Assembly: GCF_028618435.1 (NCBI RefSeq)
Contig: NZ_JAQISW010000001.1
Span: 186,001 to 250,000, forward strand
DNA: 64,000 bases
DNA from: Bartonella sp. MM73XJBT.G
Lineage (GTDB): Bacteria; Pseudomonadota; Alphaproteobacteria; Rhizobiales; Rhizobiaceae
Reading direction: 5' to 3'
Shown piece after piece: positions 11,384 to 54,520 of this stretch (within the stretch, counting starts at the first letter, position 1; each line of letters begins with the position of its first letter). The notes under the pieces are model-generated. The model did no database searches. It saw only the letters and a list, made by a program, of their open reading frames with translations, and was not told the DNA's origin. A program made the position numbers and the translations under genes.

Positions 11384-12667
11384 TCAAGCAGCATTTAATT
11401 TTGGAAGGACAGCAATCAATTTATTGCTATCATGGTCAATGATAAGAGCTTGAACAATTGTTCCTGCTTTTGCACCTTTAATTTGTGTCAGAGTATAATC
11501 TTCTGTTCGTCCAATTTCATCTTTTTCAACGAGAATTGTTTGCTGGCTATTTTGTAAGCGAGCAAGATGTTTTTGGTAAGCCTCTTCACCTACTTTACGC
11601 AATTTTTCAGCGCGCACTTTAACTATTCTACGGTTGACTTGTGGCATTCTTGCGGCTGGTGTTCCTTCTCTTGGACTAAAGGGGAAAATATGAAGATGGG
11701 TTAAATTACAATCTTTGATTAAAGCAAGACTGTTTTGAAACATCTCTTCTGTTTCCGTAGGAAAACCAGCTATTAAGTCGGCACCATAAACCATTGTAGG
11801 GCGTTTGGAACGCAATTCTTGGCAAAATTGAATAGCATGTTCACGCAAATGACGACGTTTCATCCGTTTTAAAATCATATTATCACCTGCTTGCAAGGAT
11901 AAATGCAAATGGGGCATGATCCTTTTCTCATAGGCTAAAAGATTGATAAGTTCTTCGTCTGCTTCAATAGAATCAATAGATGAGAGGCGTAATCGGGCCA
12001 AATCGGGGATATGATGTAAAATGGCTGATGTTAATTTTCCTAGAGTTGCTTTTCCAGGAAGATCATGACCATAACTTGTAAGGTCAACACCTGTAAGGAC
12101 CACTTCTTGAATTCCCTCGCCTGTCAGCTTTTTAATTTGTTCAATGACAGCTCCCATGGGAACTGAACGTGATGGTCCGCGTCCATAAGGGATAATGCAA
12201 AATGTACAGCGATGATCGCATCCATTTTGTACTTGTACAAAAGCGCGGGTGCGTTCTTGCATTGCACTGACCATATGGGGAGCAATTTTTTGCACTTCCA
12301 TGATGTCATTGATACGCACCTTTTCGGAATGGTTTATGCCAAAATCAGGAAGTTGACGATAAGAATGGGCGTGAAGTTTATCTTCGTTCCCTAAAACGAG
12401 ATCGACTTCTGTCATGGAGGCAAAATTTTGTCCTTCTGTTTGAGCTGCACATCCTGTGACAATAATGCGGGCATGAGGATTTTTCCTTCTCGCTTTGCGG
12501 ATAGCTTGTTTTGCTTGTCGCACAGCTTCAGCTGTGACAGCACAGGTATTAAAAATAATAGCACCATCTTTGAGCTGATCTAGACCTGAAGAAGCACTTT
12601 CTTTACGAATAATTTCCGATTCGTAGCTATTGAGTCGACAACCGAAAGTTACAATTTCTATCGTCAT
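11384..12667 (-). CDS. mtaB: tRNA t6A37 methylthiotransferase MtaB
   Basis: Radical-SAM enzyme that converts t6A37 to ms2t6A in tRNAs. The N-terminal methylthiotransferase domain starts IEIVTFGCRLN, and the radical-SAM cysteines are in CDHRCTFC. A C-terminal TRAM-like domain follows. The ATG overlaps the stop of dapF (TGATG), which fixes the start and gives 427 residues. It is cotranscribed with dapF and ftsY. Confidence 0.92.
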   Translation of the reverse strand: MTIEIVTFGCRLNSYESEIIRKESASSGLDQLKDGAIIFNTCAVTAEAVRQAKQAIRKARRKNPHARIIVTGCAAQTEGQNFASMTEVDLVLGNEDKLHAHSYRQLPDFGINHSEKVRINDIMEVQKIAPHMVSAMQERTRAFVQVQNGCDHRCTFCIIPYGRGPSRSVPMGAVIEQIKKLTGEGIQEVVLTGVDLTSYGHDLPGKATLGKLTSAILHHIPDLARLRLSSIDSIEADEELINLLAYEKRIMPHLHLSLQAGDNMILKRMKRRHLREHAIQFCQELRSKRPTMVYGADLIAGFPTETEEMFQNSLALIKDCNLTHLHIFPFSPREGTPAARMPQVNRRIVKVRAEKLRKVGEEAYQKHLARLQNSQQTILVEKDEIGRTEDYTLTQIKGAKAGTIVQALIIDHDSNKLIAVLPKLNAA

Positions 12668-36266: not shown

Positions 36267-36571
36267 TGGTGTCTACGGCAGGATTCGAACCTGCGACCCC
36301 AGGATTCATACCACTTCGATTTTCACCGCCAGCGTTAAAAGCTGTTTGTGGTCTGGACTGTCTCTTCACCGTAAAGCTTGCGCCTTTTAGGTGCTGCCCG
36401 TTCAGTCTCTACACCTTCCTCTCATGTTAAGAGAGGCTTGGCTCGGGATTGGCATATAGTTTTGCCCATGAAGCTTTCCCCGAATTTGAGCAGATCCACT
36501 TTGAGGATTTCTCCTCAAGGCGCCCAATTTCTTTAGGAATCCTGTGCTCTATCCTACTGAGCTACGTAGAC
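36267..36571 (-). tRNA. tRNA-Arg(CCU), interrupted by a group I intron
   Basis: Exon 1 (36535-36571) and exon 2 (36267-36306, CCA encoded) join to a complete cloverleaf. Acceptor arm is GTCTACG/CGTAGAC, anticodon stem CAGGA/TCCTG and loop TTCCTAA with anticodon CCT; the T arm is GCAGG TTCGAAT CCTGC. The exons are separated by 228 bases directly 3' of the anticodon, between positions 36 and 37. Agrobacterium is known to carry a self-splicing intron in the same tRNA. Confidence 0.9.
36307..36534 (-). other. group I self-splicing intron in tRNA-Arg(CCU)
   Basis: This 228-base insert in the anticodon loop follows a U and ends with G, as group I introns do. Near its 3' part the RNA strand has the conserved core with GACTGAACGGGCAGC and, later, GAGACAGTCC. 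These correspond to the P7 strands: GACTG pairs with CAGTC. No endonuclease frame is present. Mobility therefore depends on other means, and vertical inheritance in Rhizobiales is plausible. Confidence 0.85.
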
Positions 36572-48560: not shown

Positions 48561-48846
48561 GGAAAAATAATCCTAGCAAAGTTACAAGTTATCGTTGCCA
48601 AATAGCGTCATAAACCAGTGGGAATTGTCTCAAGCTTATTTTACACGAAGGATCTAGCAAATTACAATGATTTCTTAGAGAAATGCCGCTTAAATCACTT
48701 TCATATAAGTAATGACCATTTTTTCTGTGTAGTTTGACAGTAGGTTTTGTACTAAGTGGGAAAAGGTGGGATTAGATAGGAATACGTGATAATTTATTGT
48801 TTTTATGTATAAAATTTAGTATTAAATGTGTGTTTTGTCAAAATAG

Positions 48847-48857
48847 ATTTTGACACC
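48847..48857 (+). repeat. left candidate terminal inverted repeat of the island
   Basis: ATTTTGACACC is the exact reverse complement of GGTGTCAAAAT at 54451-54461. Together the two bracket all phage-like genes. No matching short target duplication is seen outside them. Confidence 0.35.
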
Positions 48858-48921
48858 TAAAATTGCGAAAATTACCGAAAATCAGAAAAAAGTGCGTTTT
48901 CATGGTAAAAATGAGAGAAGG

Positions 48922-49006
48922 CTTTGAAAGGTCTTTGAAAACCCTGTGAAAAATTTTGAAAAGTCTGTGAAAGCCCAGAAAACCGCCTTTGAAGACCCTT
49001 TGAAAA
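48922..49006 (+). repeat. left flanking TTTGAAA-rich direct repeats
   Basis: CTTTGAAAGGTCTTTGAA (48922-48939) and CTTTGAAGACCCTTTGAAAA (48987-49006) both recur exactly at the other side of the island (54376-54393 and 54387-54406). At this side the two blocks are separated by diverged TTTGAAAA units. They could be transposase or end-binding sites. Confidence 0.5.
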
Positions 49007-49187
49007 AAATCAATCCAAAAGTTCAATTGACTCCAAAATCAGCCAAAAATGACCAAAAAAGCAAAAAAGATATGCGCCATATGGCGCGTTTCTATTTTTT
49101 GTAAAAATAATTATTTAAAAACAATGTGTTATTTAAGTTTCTTAATGTAAAGAGAAACGCGCCTGTATTTTTCATTTTAGAGAGGCA

Positions 49188-49769
49188 TTAAGCCGTATTT
49201 TGTGTAGTTTCTAGATGTGCTCTTTCAGCTTCTATTTGACGCTTTAAATGCAATTTTAGGAGAGGCAAAGTAAGCTCTATTTCTTCCGTGTCGTTAATGT
49301 CTTGAACAAGCTCTTGCAGTTTTTTATAAAGTTCCGCCGCGAGTTCCGCTATATCTTCAGGGGGGAGTTTTATTTTAGCATCGCGATAGGTTGTATAAGC
49401 TATGCGACCAAGCTTTTTCATGAGACCAGCAGGAATGGTGGGTGCTTTAAAACCTGCTGCTTTCGCTTTTGACATGTCACTAAACATTTCGCCTTCACCA
49501 GTGACAAGCCAGTCTAAGGATATTCCACAGCGATCTTTATATATTCGCATTATAGATGCAGGGGGTTCTTGCAAACCCGTTTCATAATTGCGCATAGTCG
49601 TTTCGGGGATTTCAAAATGTTTAGCAAATTGTTTGCGCTCTGTAAAACCAAGGGTGTGCCGTATTTCACGCAATCGTTTTGCCAGTTCTGTTGTAGGTTC
49701 TTTTTCAGGGCGTGCCAAAAAAATCACTCCAAATCCATTTTCGGTATTTACAAAAGCCGAATTTGGCAT
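49188..49769 (-). CDS. phage repressor-like HTH protein
   Basis: 193 residues with an N-terminal Xre-type helix-turn-helix (LAKRLREIRHTLGFTERKQFAKHF, then PETTMRNYETG), followed by GISLDWLVTGEGEMF, typical of phage CI-like and Mu c repressors. It is divergent from the Ner-like gene across a 102-base spacer, the usual layout of a lysis-lysogeny switch. No catalytic protease domain is seen. It begins the phage-like region. Confidence 0.75.
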   Translation of the reverse strand: MPNSAFVNTENGFGVIFLARPEKEPTTELAKRLREIRHTLGFTERKQFAKHFEIPETTMRNYETGLQEPPASIMRIYKDRCGISLDWLVTGEGEMFSDMSKAKAAGFKAPTIPAGLMKKLGRIAYTTYRDAKIKLPPEDIAELAAELYKKLQELVQDINDTEEIELTLPLLKLHLKRQIEAERAHLETTQNTA

Positions 49770-49871
49770 TATACATCTAATTACCGCCCGATATAGAGGG
49801 CAGATATTTTACAATTAACCCCACAAAAAACGGATGGTTTGAGCATCCGTTTGAAGCAGGAGCGAAAGTTT
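49770..49871. promoter_or_regulatory. repressor/ner divergent control region
   Basis: This 102-base interval separates the divergent repressor and Ner-like genes and should hold both promoters and operators. A short GCCC...GGGC inverted element lies near 49788-49802. Operator assignment is by position only. Confidence 0.35.
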
Positions 49872-50177
49872 ATGACAACCACACAAACATGCATTCAAGT
49901 ATGGGATCGCCATAGTATTTTAGCTGAGCTACGCCGCCGTAATATGACCTTGGCGGAGCTCGCGAAAGCTTATCAACTCTCGTCATCCAGTGTTCAACAC
50001 ATTTGGACACGGTCTAACGAGAAAGCTGAACGTGCTATTGCCGATTTTATCGGTTTGCCCGTCGAGCAGGTTTTTAGTGACCGCTACCCCAAAAGTCGCC
50101 GTCGCATTTTTAAAGCAGCAAAACATGCCAATACAGATTCGCGTGCGCATTCTGCTTTGCGCGGTAATGCTGCTTAA
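49872..50177 (+). CDS. Ner-like phage DNA-binding regulator
   Basis: A 101-residue protein with WDRHSILAELRRRNMTLAEL and then AYQLSSSSVQHIW, IADFIGLPVEQVFSDRYP. This is the Ner/SfsB family fold of Mu-like phages, which represses early transcription. CAGGAG 10 bases before ATG 49872 sets the start; the frame opens upstream at 49839. Being divergent from the repressor fits Mu. Confidence 0.8.
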   Translation: MTTTQTCIQVWDRHSILAELRRRNMTLAELAKAYQLSSSSVQHIWTRSNEKAERAIADFIGLPVEQVFSDRYPKSRRRIFKAAKHANTDSRAHSALRGNAA

Positions 50178-50250
50178 ACCTCGTTACACGGCTTTGCGTT
50201 TTTGCGCATTTGCCATGTATTTAGATACCATAAGATAAAAAGGTTTATCA

Positions 50251-50388
50251 ATGTCTAAAGATCAATACGAAATAGGCAAGAAAAATTGCACAGAGTTGCA
50301 TCATGGAACAGCCGATTGGATGGGTTGGTTTTGGCGATTAGGGGGTCAAGTTTTCTTTATCGGGGGTGGTTATGGTTGCGGCTTATAA
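50251..50388 (+). CDS. small phage protein, 45 residues
   Basis: ATG 50251 has AAAGG at proper spacing and encodes MSKDQYEIGKKNCTELHHG followed by a Trp/Gly-rich tail (WMGWFWRLGG). It overlaps the start of the next gene. No function is recognised; the position between ner-like and ParB-like genes fits an early phage gene. Confidence 0.4.
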   Translation: MSKDQYEIGKKNCTELHHGTADWMGWFWRLGGQVFFIGGGYGCGL

Positions 50389-50770
50389 TTTATGGACTCT
50401 CGATGCCAAAAAAGAAATTTTTAATCCTTATTCAGAAGCTGAACGGTTGCACATTATGGTGACTTGTTCTTTTAAGGCGGTGAGTGGTGGATTTAGGCAT
50501 TTGCCAATCCGATATATTATTGACCCCCCGCATGGCTTATTTGATGCGGCATTAGCACGACAGATTGTTATTCATATTTTGCATTATCAGTTTGAAGTTC
50601 CGCGGCGGCGTCTTGTCGCTATGCAAGAGCGTGAACGCACTGCTGTTGCTCGCTCTTTGCGTACAATTAATCTGCGTTTGGAAGAGCCTGTCTTTGCTAG
50701 AGCCTATCAAAGGTGGGCGGGGCGTGCGATGGATTTATTTTTTAAAGAAATGGCAAAGGCGGGGGCGTGA
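50372..50770 (+). CDS. phage protein with DnaA C-terminal-like helix-turn-helix
   Basis: About 132 residues. The middle, LARQIVIHILHYQFEVPRRR, then ERTAVARSLRTINLRLEEP, resembles the DnaA domain IV helix-turn-helix (RQIA...L, R-x-RT/ST-V) used by small phage and Rhizobiales proteins. It lacks an AAA+ domain and cannot act as a full initiator. GTG 50366 is an alternative start. It overlaps the ParB-like gene by 4 bases. A DNA-binding role is inferred. Confidence 0.5.
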   Translation: MVAAYNLWTLDAKKEIFNPYSEAERLHIMVTCSFKAVSGGFRHLPIRYIIDPPHGLFDAALARQIVIHILHYQFEVPRRRLVAMQERERTAVARSLRTINLRLEEPVFARAYQRWAGRAMDLFFKEMAKAGA

Positions 50771-51717
50771 TGGCACAGTTTCAGAAGCTTGCTCTTGATG
50801 TGATTGTGGTGCCGGAGCGTATACGCCCTGTAGATGATGAGCATGCCAAGGCACTTGCACAATCGATGGCGCGGGAGGGATTGATGAATCCGATTACGGT
50901 GCGCCATACCCCCAATGCTAAGGAAAGCAATTACACGCTTATTGCTGGTGCGCATCGGCTGCGTGCTGCGGAGCTTTTGGACTATAGTGACATTGATGCC
51001 GTTGTGGTGCAGGCTGATAAGGATAATGCTGCGCTTTTAGAAGTAGCGGAAAACCTCTTTCGCAATGAATTGTCAGTGATTGACCGTGCGCTTTTTGTCC
51101 AGATTTACCGCGAATTGTGGGAAAAGAAGTATGGGGAGATTCAACGTGGTGGAGATGGTAGTAATCAATATAAGGTTAAAAAAGAGCAATTCGGTCAAGT
51201 TGACCGAATTGCTCAAACAAACGAAGGTGCCTCTTCAAATGACAATGAAACCGCAGGTGCAGGGGACAAAGTGGCAAAGGTGCAAGTTGCACCTTTGCCA
51301 AATGATGGTGACTTAAATGGCAAAGTGCAAGGTTTGCACTTTGCCAAACATGTGGTGGACCGCATTGGTTTGTCTGAAGAGTCAGTGAGACGACTCAACC
51401 GCATTGCTCAGCATTTACAGCCGGAGTTGCGGTCTGTTTTGCGGGGGACGGCATTGGCGGATAACCAAGCGCAGTTGTTGAAGTTGGCAAAGATGGAGCC
51501 GGTTGCGCAACGGCGGGTGGCGATTGCTTTGCAACAGGTTGAAGGGGATTTACGGCGGGCTGTTGATTTGGTCAATGGGATTAATATACCCCCGAAAGTT
51601 AATGAGCAAGAGCGGGTTTTTGCTCAATTGTTGAGTGTGTGGCAGAGAGCGGATGCACAGACACGGGCGTGGTTTTATGATTATTTGAACAAACAATCGG
51701 GGGAGGGGCAGGCATGA
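50767..51717 (+). CDS. ParB-like phage protein with palindromic variable segment
   Basis: 316 residues with an N-terminal ParB/sulfiredoxin-type domain: VVPERIRPVDDEHAKALAQS, MNPITVR, IAGAHRLRAAELL. The ParB GERR motif is GAHR here. A middle segment (about residues 138-195) holds three copies of a peptide like FGQVDRIAQ, KVQVAPLP and KVQGLHFA separated by polar linkers. Their DNA is three perfect palindromes (51184-51346). A C-terminal helical domain follows. ParB-like genes before the transposase are known in Mu-like phages of alphaproteobacteria. The array at the island's right end is related to the middle segment. Confidence 0.75.
   Translation: MMAQFQKLALDVIVVPERIRPVDDEHAKALAQSMAREGLMNPITVRHTPNAKESNYTLIAGAHRLRAAELLDYSDIDAVVVQADKDNAALLEVAENLFRNELSVIDRALFVQIYRELWEKKYGEIQRGGDGSNQYKVKKEQFGQVDRIAQTNEGASSNDNETAGAGDKVAKVQVAPLPNDGDLNGKVQGLHFAKHVVDRIGLSEESVRRLNRIAQHLQPELRSVLRGTALADNQAQLLKLAKMEPVAQRRVAIALQQVEGDLRRAVDLVNGINIPPKVNEQERVFAQLLSVWQRADAQTRAWFYDYLNKQSGEGQA
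51184..51214. repeat. palindrome P1 in ParB-like gene
   Basis: Perfect 15-bp arms, GAGCAATTCGGTCAA and its complement, around one G. The inner 23 bases recur at 54150-54172. In frame it encodes QFGQVDRIA. Confidence 0.9.
51272..51300. repeat. palindrome P2 in ParB-like gene
   Basis: Perfect 14-bp arms, TGGCAAAGGTGCAA and its complement, around one G. The sequence differs from P1 but the CAA-N-TTG centre is the same. Encodes AKVQVAPLP. Confidence 0.9.
51318..51346. repeat. palindrome P3 in ParB-like gene
   Basis: Perfect 13-bp arms, TGGCAAAGTGCAA and its complement, around GGT. Encodes GKVQGLHFAK. Confidence 0.9.
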
Positions 51718-52172
51718 AGAGGCATGGTTTCCAACAGCTTGATTTTTTTCAACGTCCGGTTTTTCCTTGCCGTGAACCCGTTGCGCAGATTGATTTAGAG
51801 CGGTTTCGTTCTCGCATTAAGCGGGCGATGGCACGAGCTTTGCGTGAATGTCTGGTTGAGCGCAGTGTGATTGCAGAGCGTATGGCGCATTATTTAGGCA
51901 TTGGTTGTTTAAGTAAGGCGAGTTTGGATGCTTATGTAGCGGAAAGTAAGCAGGTGGATATTTCCCTGCCACGCTTTAAAGCTTTTGTGCGGGCGACGGG
52001 CGCCTTTTGGCTTTGGGATGAGGTGGTGAGTGAAGATGGATTGTTGCTGTTGCAAGGGGATGAAGCGCGTTTGGCAGAAATTGCAAGATTGCAGCAGGAA
52101 CAGCGTGAGATTGCGGCGCGGTTGAAAGCGATGCGTGCGGTTCCGGTTCGTATTAGACGGGGGCAGCCATGA
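51714..52172 (+). CDS. conserved phage protein of Mu-like early region
   Basis: 152-residue, arginine-rich protein with RSRIKRAMARALRECLVERS and a helical middle (MAHYLGIGCLSKASLDAYVAE), then a C-terminal coiled-coil-like stretch (ARLAEIARLQQEQREIAARLKAM). It overlaps its neighbours by 4 bases on each side. I recall similar proteins beside ParB-like and transposase genes of transposable phages, but no function can be given. Confidence 0.6.
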   Translation: MKRHGFQQLDFFQRPVFPCREPVAQIDLERFRSRIKRAMARALRECLVERSVIAERMAHYLGIGCLSKASLDAYVAESKQVDISLPRFKAFVRATGAFWLWDEVVSEDGLLLLQGDEARLAEIARLQQEQREIAARLKAMRAVPVRIRRGQP

Positions 52173-52507
52173 AAGAGTGGTTTAGTATTGCTGAGTTGGC
52201 TGAAGCGGCTTTGCCGGGATTGCCAAAAACAAAGATCGGTCTCAACAATCTTGCGCTTAAGAAATGGCGTTTGAATACACAATTGTTTCGCCAAACATTA
52301 GGCAAAACCAAGCCGGTTTGGGAGTATCACATCTCTTTATTGCCGGAAGGGGCGCGGGCAGCATTGTTGTTGCGGGCGGGTGGTGTTGATGTTTTGCAAA
52401 AGACAGAACAGAGCATGCAAAAGGAAAGTGTTTGGGTGCGTTATGAGGGGCTTTCAGGCAAGACATCTCTTAAGGCACCCAAACCCATTTCGCGACGGCG
52501 CCCGTGA
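52169..52507 (+). pseudogene. Mu-type transposase A, N-terminal fragment
   Basis: The first ~95 residues match the Mu DNA-binding domain that binds phage ends and enhancer: KEWFSIAELAEAALPGLPKT and, later, WEYHISLLPEGARAALLLR. From about 52456 the frame only runs through the complement of an integrase fragment, giving meaningless residues to a stop at 52507. The catalytic DDE domain and MuB are absent, so the phage cannot transpose by itself. Confidence 0.75.
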
Positions 52508-52638
52508 ATGGTATAGCGATAAATCCATTGAGCACCACCATCTTTACGCTTATGGAGTAACAAGCCGGCACCATCATTATATTTGCCAGCCCCCAATGTT
52601 GCGACAGATCTTGCATTAAGACAGTTCATAAGGACCAT
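52441..52638 (-). pseudogene. P4-type integrase N-terminal fragment
   Basis: ATG 52638 has an excellent AAAGGAG and opens MVLMNCLNARSVATLGAGKY, then a segment with DGAGLLLHKRKDGGAQWIYR and MGLGALRDV. This is the arm-binding DUF4102 domain of tyrosine integrases. The similarity stops at about 52460 where it meets the transposase fragment, and the catalytic domain is missing. Confidence 0.75.
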
Positions 52639-52666
52639 TTTTACTCCTTTCTTATACAAATTTGAT

Positions 52667-52800
52667 CCACACACTCATCCCGCTTGTGATGTGCAAATGA
52701 GTGCTTTTGATTGATTCAAGATAAAGAGATTTGAAATGAGAGAATCTTACGTTATTCGGTGTTCTAATTCAATATGAATAACGCTAAATTATCATTATAA
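52667..52800. repeat. dispersed repeat family, copy C
   Basis: Contains CTTGTGATGTGCAAATGAG, TTTTGATTGATTCAAGAT, TTTGAAATGAGAGAATCTTA and TTATAAATCAATAT. It aligns with the copies at 25.4, 43.56 and 59.1 kb. It lies exactly between the integrase fragment and the truncated tail gene, so it marks a recombination junction. Confidence 0.5.
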
Positions 52801-53716
52801 ATCAATATCTTGTACAGACCATGCGGGAAATGAAACTGATACATTCGAGGCAGAGTTTGATGATAGCGGCAATGATTTAGAGATTCCCTCCAGTAACAGC
52901 GCGCTCCATGTTACCTTTGGTTATCAGGACAGCATCAGTGCTTTTATGGGGTGTTTTGTTGTGGAATCGGTGATCAGTTGTGGGGGCAGTGATGGAGAAA
53001 TCTTGCGTCTTTGTGGCAAAAGCGCCTCGATGCGTAAAGAACTCAAAGAACAGGGAAGCGAACATTTTGACCACAAAACCATTGCTGAGATTGTTGAGAC
53101 CCTTGCCAAACGTCATGGTTATCAAGCAAAGGTCAGTCCACAATTTACCAAACAAACCTTGCCTTATGTGGTACGCACCGATCAATCGGCGATTGATTTT
53201 TTAACCCGCCTTGCTGATCGGATGCAGGCGCGTTTTTTAATCAAAGACAATAAGTTTTTATTTTTAAGCGGGGACAATCTCCCCCTCCAGACCATTCATC
53301 AACAGGAATGTTCCCATTGGGAATTTAGTCTCGAGCCACGCACGCAATATGGCACTATTGAAGCTGCTTATTTTGATCGCTCAAAAGGGCAGCAATGCCA
53401 AGTCAAGCATCAGACAGGTTTTAGTGGTCCCGTGCGTTGTCTGCGTGGTTGTTACACTTGTAAAGAAGAAGCACAAGCTGCTGCTGCATCAGAATCAGAC
53501 CGACTTTGCCGTGCTGTGGGCAGTGGTTCTTTAAGCCTTGAGGGGCGCCCTGAAATCATGGCGGGTCAACCGCTGCTGCTTCAAGGGTTTCGAGGCGAAA
53601 TCAATGGACCATGGAAAGCCGCTACCGTTACCCATCGCTATGAAAAGCAAAGTGGTTACACCACAGAAATCACACTCGAAGCACCAGACAAGGGAAAAGA
53701 AGCAGGGGAAAAATAA
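52798..53716 (+). pseudogene. phage late control D / tail protein, 5'-truncated
   Basis: The open frame from about 52798 reads SISCTDHAGNETDTFEAEF and later LHVTFGYQDS, MGCFVVESV, TIAEIVETLAKRHGY. This is the gpD family of contractile tails, part of the baseplate hub and related to VgrG. The N-terminal 20-40 residues and a start codon are missing because the frame begins at the repeat boundary. ATG 52946 could start a shorter product of 256 residues, but that would lack a conserved part. Confidence 0.7.
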
Positions 53717-54240
53717 ACCTTCGAGAAACATAAAATCAAAGGGTCAACTTGACCCTTTGATCGGTGATGATGAACATTTAGAGCAATTGGTGCAACTTGC
53801 ACCAATTGCTAAAAGGAGCAATAGTGCAAACATTGCACAATTGCATGATGAAGAAAAATTGGGTCAAGTTGATCCTATTTTTGAAATATTCAGATCACAA
53901 TGAAATTTTATGTGAAGGAAATGGAAGATCAAAAGTGCAACCTGCTCCTTTGATCGGTTGTAATGCTTTCTGAGATCAACGTGCAATGTTTGCACTTTGG
54001 GTGGGAGAGCAATGGGGACAACTTGTCCCTATTCCTTAAAGAATAGGATCAAGTTGATCCAATTGCATGAGTTCAGCAATAGGGTAATGTTTACCCAATT
54101 CCTCAAACAAGTAATGGTACAAAAATTGCGCAATTGCATATCGAAGTGTAATTCGGTCAAGTTGACCGAATTCCTCAAAGCTTCTTTTGTTTTAATAATG
54201 CCTCAGAAAACTGAAAAGCTGTCACTCACTTTATGTTAAA
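53717..54240 (+). pseudogene. decayed repeat gene made of palindromic units
   Basis: In one frame up to 53903 the sequence encodes KGQLDPLIG, LVQLAPIAK, ANIAQLHD and KLGQVDPIF separated by acidic linkers. After frame changes further units follow: VQPAPLIG, VQCLHFG, GQLVPIP. Then in a single frame broken by TGA, TAG and TAA come DQVDPIA, GNVYPIP, TKIAQLH and FGQVDRIP. These resemble the variable segment of the ParB-like protein at 50.8 kb. No start codon or ParB domain is present. Confidence 0.55.
53736..54172. repeat. array of about eleven palindromes with shared CAA-N-TTG centre
   Basis: Arms (left/right): 53736-53747/53749-53760 perfect 12; 53782-53795/53797-53810 perfect 14; 53818-53829/53833-53844 one mismatch; 53856-53867/53869-53880 two; 53927-53939/53943-53955 two; 53981-53986/53990-53995 perfect 6; 54011-54021/54023-54033 one; 54042-54052/54054-54064 one; 54078-54087/54091-54100 one; 54113-54122/54126-54135 three; 54150-54160/54162-54172 perfect 11. 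Arm sequences change between units while complementarity is kept. Spacing is mostly 30-45 bases. Confidence 0.85.
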
Positions 54241-54375
54241 AGAAGAGATACCTTTTTATGCATGCTGCTTCTCAAATAATGCGATTGTAATACGATTCTG
54301 GCAAAAGAACTGATCATTAAAAATCATAATTTTTAGGAGAAGAGAAAGAAATTCATTAAAGAGGCTCTAAATGAT

Positions 54376-54406
54376 CTTTGAAAGGTCTTTGAAGACCCTT
54401 TGAAAA
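54376..54406 (+). repeat. right flanking TTTGAAA-rich direct repeats
   Basis: CTTTGAAAGGTCTTTGAA (54376-54393) and CTTTGAAGACCCTTTGAAAA (54387-54406) overlap here and are exact copies of blocks at 48922-48939 and 48987-49006. Confidence 0.5.
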
Positions 54407-54450
54407 CACCTTAAAAACCCTTTAAAAGAAAATAAATTGGTACAAAACCT

Positions 54451-54461
54451 GGTGTCAAAAT
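54451..54461 (-). repeat. right candidate terminal inverted repeat of the island
   Basis: GGTGTCAAAAT is the exact complement of 48847-48857. It lies 60 bases before tRNA-Gly. Confidence 0.35.
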
Positions 54462-54520
54462 ATACAAAACCCGCTGACAAGCTACAACGAATAAATCAAA
54501 ATTCAATAATCAAAACTTAA

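Follow-up and report, generated by a model that had tools for sequence, protein, structure and literature searches.

Intragenic palindromes as very likely parS-like sites of a ParB-like protein of Mu-like phages, multiplied in Bartonella

A Mu-like prophage remnant of Bartonella carries a run of short palindromes near its right end, 3' of the tail-hub gene, and the question raised by this locus is what such palindromes are and why their two arms change together. Array-type palindromes also lie in frame within the linker of the intact ParB-like gene of the same prophage. Based on sequence comparison, we propose that in all likelihood they represent parS-like DNA-binding sites recognised by the ParB-like protein that Mu-like phages encode, usually intragenic and, in Bartonella, multiplied. 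Features of the window, by which we mean the whole stretch of 64,000 nucleotides that was analysed, are collected in Table 1.

Table 1. Positions of the prophage remnant, its genes, the sites in the ParB-like gene and the array units in the window
Feature	Position	Strand	Basis or remark
Mu-like (transposable) prophage remnant	48729..54487		inverted ends TGTAG[T/C]TTG[A/T]CAG..GGTTTTGTA; ends approximate
CI-like phage repressor	49188..49769	-	Pfam Phage_CI_repr 2.2e-8
Ner-like winged HTH	49839..50177	+	Pfam HTH_35 1.2e-24, phrog_769
Early phage gene, function unassigned	50366..50770	+	phrog_9734 9.8e-73
ParB-like gene, intact, 316 aa: ParB_N, disordered linker, HTH	50767..51717	+	Pfam, PHROG, model
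Linker, residues 127-191	51145..51339	+	pLDDT <50
Site P1, core CGGTCAA-G-TTGACCG	51184..51214		15/15 arm pairs
Site P2, core GTGCAA-G-TTGCAC, QDVVKRL-class word	51272..51300		14/14 arm pairs
Site P3, core TGCAA-GGT-TTGCA, TGCAAA-type; tentatively KRAVHYL class (one gene)	51318..51346		13/13 arm pairs
HTH recognition helix, residues 204-216; h2=E205, h5=R208, h6=R209	51376..51414	+	model helix; specificity columns
Conserved regulator between parB and transposase A	51714..52172	+	phrog_2345 6.9e-50
Transposase A, truncated to N-terminal DNA-binding domain	52169..52507	+	Pfam HTH_Tnp_Mu_1
Tail hub (gene D) fragment, without N-terminus	52814..53716	+	Pfam Phage_GPD, phrog_52
Array unit 1	53735..53761		GGTCAA word (cognate)
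Array unit 2	53782..53810		GTGCAA word
Array unit 3	53818..53844		TGCAAA-type word
Array unit 4	53854..53882		hybrid GGTCAA/GATCAA
Array unit 5	53927..53955		degenerate, GTGCAA-like
Array unit 6	53977..53999		TGCAA-type
Array unit 7	54009..54031		GGACAA word
Array unit 8	54039..54066		GATCAA word
Array unit 9	54078..54100		GGTAAT, counted as GGTAAA word
Weak unit relic	about 54117..54137		6-bp arms only; 3/14 pairs if centred at 54127
Array unit 11	54150..54172		GGTCAA word (cognate), core identical to P1

Within bases 53719-54180 (462 bases), nine palindromes with a score of at least 7 were found. Across 200 dinucleotide shuffles of these bases, the average count was 0.25 and the highest 2; across 134 further stretches of 462 bases from the 64 kb, the corresponding values were 0.46 and 5. 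At a score of at least 10, four palindromes contrasted with 0.02 in both controls. An earlier note on this DNA had described about eleven palindromes, and this count was confirmed as about ten units and one relic, far above chance. The array is composed of few core words that alternate within few outer-arm kinds (TGGCAAAG, ATCAAAG, GAGCAAT). All six Bartonella core words are present, including the word of the window's own ParB (GGTCAA), which occurs twice; as had been noted, the last unit is therefore equal to the core of P1 in the ParB-like gene. Units centred at 53868, 53941, and 54127 are decayed or hybrid. The previous description of most mismatches as single was only partly correct, as mismatches per 14 pairs range from 0 to 5 over the ten units, eight of which have two or more. 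Near-identical repeats with unique spacers were not seen, the units differing in both core and arms, and the exclusion of CRISPR stands.

Symmetric arm changes between units, another statement of the earlier note, were borne out in a larger sample. Units were picked at a minimum of 11 of 15 pairs from 18 related loci as well as from the window; of 42 picked, one was dropped as a chance match, leaving 41. In this set, 90.6% of cells were paired and the covariation score was 0.642, compared to 0.184 for shuffled controls, a difference inflated by the fact that units were chosen for pairing. A separate search for RNA-family identity gave only one tRNA and one group I intron in the window at gathering scores; the intron lies at 36335-36547 on the minus strand.

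The prophage bounds were placed by similarity to other copies, which begins at 48728 (window versus locus L087) and ends at 54487 (window versus L095), and they hold where comparison with other copies reaches that far. No target-site duplication was recognised at the prophage ends. From left to right, the order is CI-like repressor, Ner-like protein, early gene, ParB-like protein, regulator, cut transposase A, end of the tail hub, array, and right end. Transposase A has 112 aa in the window and 664 aa in L087, and the tail-hub gene has a full size of 335-336 aa in relatives (L090/L093). At the deletion point of the prophage, a minus-strand frame at 52441-52674 resembles what we take to be the start of a tyrosine integrase.

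With E values up to 0.1, a covariance model of the units had matches in 37 of the 61 Bartonella genomes, where stricter filters may lose weak units. In three genomes for which all matches were listed, sites fall in parB genes and right-end arrays, with the exception of one single unit, and the association of the palindromes with a ParB-like phage gene thus holds. That unit, with the GGTCAA word, lies at G000:C1:6499-6529 (L040), away from any phage gene that could be recognised nearby. A tail-hub match was present at 43 of 47 right-end loci examined. Right-end loci with at least one core word number 29 entries among 42 distinct starts, L142 and L160 being counted twice because two alignments hit one gene. 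The number and order of right-end units vary between loci: L153-L156 contain a single clear unit each and no core word under the counting rule, while L157, L164, L165, and L167-L169 have a right end without an array. At these last six loci, the tail-hub end abuts sequence resembling what is presumably a replicative helicase gene. The array is not confined to coding repeats in intact homologues, as it also lies 3' of the tail-hub stop in other genomes, where no ORF of at least 90 aa spans it in L090 or L093; a coding-repeat view was rejected because the array sits past the gene D stop in these genomes.

The ParB-like protein was assigned by several matches. Its ParB_N domain matches PF02195 (9.8e-12, above the cut-off) and TIGR00180 (64.5 bits, cut-off 58.45), and the gene belongs to phrog_3264 (3.4e-102). 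ParB_N is the only Pfam domain in the protein, with zero matches to any HTH family; the HTH following ParB_N was instead placed by the predicted model, which aligned through residue 272 to Caulobacter ParB (6t1f) with moderate confidence (mean pLDDT 65.8). Caulobacter ParB was the first match of the predicted fold (Z 12.8), tied with Noc (7nfu, 12.2) and followed by KorB; for the ParB_N part of the model, sulfiredoxins and other proteins match almost equally well. In an alignment of ParB-like proteins, G60, R63, and N95 are invariant and E94 and R98 nearly so; with regard to putative CTP binding and hydrolysis, the GxHR and ENLxR columns are conserved.

Related transposable phages carry a comparable palindrome outside Bartonella. 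In POA1180, Aussie, RcapMu, StopSmel, and RR1-B, parB contains a palindrome of 23-29 bases between ParB_N and the HTH, and its sequence differs from phage to phage. The Bartonella covariance model detects the POA1180 palindrome, and weakly those of RcapMu and StopSmel. In all five sequenced phages, the palindrome core is present once per genome, inside parB, and no extra copy of the site rose above the shuffled best in any of the five, except at POA1180 (L170) 35616, a second, half-matching copy (23 of 29 bases, shuffled best 20). The RR1-B genome (L174) also contains a second kind of palindrome, TGACCGGAACCGRGTTCCGGTCA, which is perhaps the site of a different regulator and occurs in four almost identical copies spread over positions 11530, 18994, 26071, and 31108.

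In a first set of 33 phage-type genes, the best palindrome of the gene fell within the linker in 28 (p 4e-18, kinship ignored). Of 60 synonymous-codon shuffles per gene, no more than one matched the linker palindrome in 22 genes of this set, and between 3 and 50 did so in the other 11. Among four chromosomal-type ParB controls (L200, L201, L202, and L204), 8, 10, 13, and 38 of 60 shuffles matched, so that the palindrome is not rare there; two of these four (L200 and L201) nonetheless have their highest-scoring palindrome in the linker stretch. The gene set was then widened with phage records, phrog_3264 matches in the order, profile matches in the class and phylum, and viral contigs, where POA1180 as a query yielded eight relatives and one distant query none. 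After five near-duplicates were dropped and Bartonella and the four chromosomal-type genes excluded, 74 non-redundant genes were obtained, taken from at most 30 loci per genome search among the matches listed, with further full-length matches existing; they are phage-type by profile, and not all of them need lie in a prophage. In 59 of these 74 genes, the best palindrome lies within the linker, which makes up 10.9% of the gene, and in 15 it lies outside; the median best score was 9.99 in the linker versus 6.98 elsewhere. One parB from another proteobacterium (L235) has two identical perfect palindromes, at nt 433-461 and 715-743.

With protein and palindrome encoded by one gene, helix residues h5, h6, and h2 can be read against half-site positions -6, -3, and -4, where half-site positions are counted from the centre towards the ends and helix residues from the one that follows 'GxS'. 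A linker palindrome scoring at least 6.9 was present in 63 of the 74 genes, of which 58 were kept; four genes with an even centre were dropped, as was L188, whose palindrome does not keep the register of the others and would have scored as an exception. Among the 58 genes, E or Q at h5 is accompanied by C at -6 in 27 of 28 cases; for R or K, the base is G in 19 of 20, and for A, F, W, or Y it is T in all nine. At h6, R occurs with C at -3 in 30 of 31 and non-R residues with A in 27 of 27. The relation of h2 to -4 is looser: E goes with T in three of three genes and S with T in four of five, and R with A in 23 and with C in 19 of 44, two being unpaired. R or K facing G and E or Q facing C are chemically plausible pairings. 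A blind scan of 249 columns against nine half-site positions, with residues grouped into four kinds, placed h5/-6, h6/-3, and h2/-4 at ranks 1 to 3 (z 28, 22, and 15).

The two leading rules also held with one gene per cluster (22 genes, <40% identity outside the linker and HTH), where C at -6 was found in 9/9 genes with E or Q at h5 versus 0/7 with R or K, and C at -3 in 12/12 with R at h6 versus 0/10 with another residue. The 11 of 74 genes scoring below 6.9, and therefore left out, offer a fair test of the rules: L186, L205, and L210 fit both, and the other eight do not. In Caulobacter ParB, the recognition helix inserts into the major groove of parS, with which N178 makes contact (PMC7383237). 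By counting from G170, we placed N178 at helix residue 6. Judged by covariation, the palindrome is specific to its own ParB, and its linker location, together with the tracking of bases by helix residues, argues that it is, with high probability, a parS-like site for the protein encoded by the same gene.

To relate this code to Bartonella, 31 distinct linkers with an HTH were compared; one gene with an internal stop (L048), which is without the GGACAA word suggested by its helix, was set aside. When named genomes were searched for ParB, all 33 loci obtained came from Bartonella records. The ParB-like genes fall into six HTH classes, and the class word was present as GGTAAA in 8/8 genes with KESVKLL or KESIKLL, GTGCAA in 10/10 with QDVVKRL, GGACAA in 7/7 of the SKS/TKS type, GATCAA in 2/2 of a pair with h2=V, and GGTCAA, the word of P1, in 2/2 of the window protein's own class, EESVRRL. 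The sixth class, KRAVHYL, is one gene that carries four words, including TGCAAA, and its pairing with that word is therefore a guess. In four classes (all except the h2=V pair and KRAVHYL), the own word was present in 27 of 27 genes versus 14.3 expected under class shuffling. When words were re-chosen for each shuffle across six classes, 30 of 30 compared to at most 27 in 20,000 shuffles, a test that corrects in part for classes having been defined after the data were seen and that chose a word other than TGCAAA for the one-gene class. For h6=L and h5=K, the code predicts A at -3 and G at -6, and GGTAAA is the sole fitting word among the six; it was found in 8/8 h6=L genes versus 7/21 h6=R genes (p 0.002). 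This prediction is out of sample because the h5 and h6 rules derive from non-Bartonella genes.

Together, these data are best accommodated by a protein that reads its own gene. A dimer would read one half-site with each HTH, and both halves of the palindrome would change together for this reason. Bartonella phages would have multiplied the site within the linker, where up to five sites occur in one gene, and in the array located within the prophage at its right end. We infer that the protein binds and loads at the site, perhaps as a CTP-dependent sliding clamp like ParB, Noc, and KorB, and that the bound intragenic site may act on the early operon, for example as a roadblock before the transposase genes. 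Such a roadblock or silencing role is our preferred guess, to which we give perhaps a third of the weight, because, in the early operon, the transposase genes follow the intragenic site. With the site inside the gene, the protein and its address would also stay linked in phages with mosaic genomes. A plain partition function seems less probable, since ParA is not annotated in POA1180, Aussie, RcapMu, StopSmel, or RR1-B (annotations only; POA1180 has a short 'ATPase', gp33). The passages of a fold survey that concern plasmid and prophage members describe many of them as orphans (PMC12704722).

Words of foreign classes are carried by 23 of 29 Bartonella genes in five classes, and two readings that build on the parS-like explanation differ in what these words do. 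They may be leftovers of earlier HTH specificities after recombinational swaps of the HTH, with only cognate sites at work, which we regard as possible, if somewhat unlikely. The decayed or hybrid units of the window array and the mixing of HTH classes and words between linkers are as expected from such a history; many non-cognate sites are nevertheless perfect palindromes, unexpected in unused DNA unless they are very recent or repaired.

A more doubtful possibility is that the ParB-like protein acts against rival phages, by exclusion or silencing, and that the palindrome labels DNA as self. Arrays of many words would then give a phage passage where the resident prophages belong to other ParB classes, an extension that we consider unlikely. 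The frequency of foreign-class words and the presence of all six in the window array agree with such a function, as does the tendency of right-end arrays to repeat words less than shuffled ones (66 distinct versus 56.6, p 0.0003, 19 distinct arrays). That test took 20 of the 29 entries, leaving out single-unit arrays, repeats, L133, and L162, and we do not rely on it because the arrays are related by descent, so that an excess of distinct words may be inherited, and because nine of the 29 entries were left out; linkers, moreover, display no such excess (68 versus 67.7). Defence models match the protein poorly: a PADLOC scan returned one weak methyltransferase match (E 2e-4) and no BstA match. 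A precedent exists in BstA, which, in the sections of its report on self-immunity, has an intragenic, cognate DNA element for that purpose (PMC8585504). In its fullest form, this reading holds that self-addressed parB modules with a residue-to-base code entered an arms race between classes in Bartonella and gave rise to 'passport' arrays, by which a phage is recognised or exempted by other ParBs, and in that form too we judge it improbable.

The earlier note had attributed the pairing to selection or a copying process acting on a DNA or RNA hairpin. Constraint on the DNA rather than on the peptide was upheld, and strong pairing with changes on both sides would fit hairpins under structural selection, for example in parB mRNA, or palindromes perfected by template-switch repair. 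However, core letters track recognition-helix residues, which neither hairpins nor template switching predict, and G-U cells are few (18 of 574 in the covariation set, with 12 confined to the two outermost pairs). There is therefore no need to invoke a hairpin or copying process, an explanation that we consider very improbable; the pairing would thus reflect protein recognition, and template switching may help to keep the palindromes symmetric. A mobile palindromic element inserting in frame, like those of Rickettsia, would account for in-frame units of variable number within a protein linker but is hardly credible given the confinement of sites to parB linkers and right-end arrays, bar one unit, in the three fully listed genomes, the single parB copy in the five other phages, and a palindrome sequence that follows the HTH.

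The parS-like reading has consequences beyond this locus. Natural protein-site pairs, each contained in one gene, make ParB-type HTH specificity readable from sequence, and they offer a clue to the role of orphan phage ParBs. Several specificities within one genus, gathered in one array, make rivalry or cooperation between prophages testable. In a search of mostly freely readable literature, no published report was found of a palindrome in transposable-phage parB or in Bartonella prophages, and 'palindrom' occurs 0 times in the texts of PMC5492332, PMC5488378, and PMC12704722.

Several known systems resemble parts of this arrangement. The BstA-aba system of Salmonella prophage BTP1 has a short, cognate-specific element within the protein's own locus that works at the DNA level, and by its sequence the linker palindrome is likewise an intragenic cognate element; BstA is another protein as far as described, and aba contains CCCGCC direct repeats and extends across the start of the gene (PMC8585504). 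The mechanism of the BstA-aba encounter is described as unclear, and arrays go unmentioned, in the corresponding sections (PMC8585504). ParB-parS, Noc-NBS, and KorB share with the phage protein ParB_N, the HTH, the invariant residues, a fold match (6t1f, 7ol9, 8qa9), and, as the code suggests, a palindromic site read by the recognition helix. The phage protein differs in that its site lies inside the linker of its own gene and varies from phage to phage, that no ParA is annotated in the five related phages, and that Bartonella carries several specificities together. In Bacillus subtilis, a parS site also lies inside spo0J, the gene for its own ParB, but chromosomal parS sites there have one fixed common sequence. 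Rickettsia palindromic elements are likewise in frame in proteins, but are longer, scattered over unrelated genes, and without a link to a DNA-binding protein. The palindromes are not a new repeat class as such; what is new is a ParB with a putative site that is intragenic, self-addressed, and code-readable, and that is assembled into multi-specific arrays in Bartonella.
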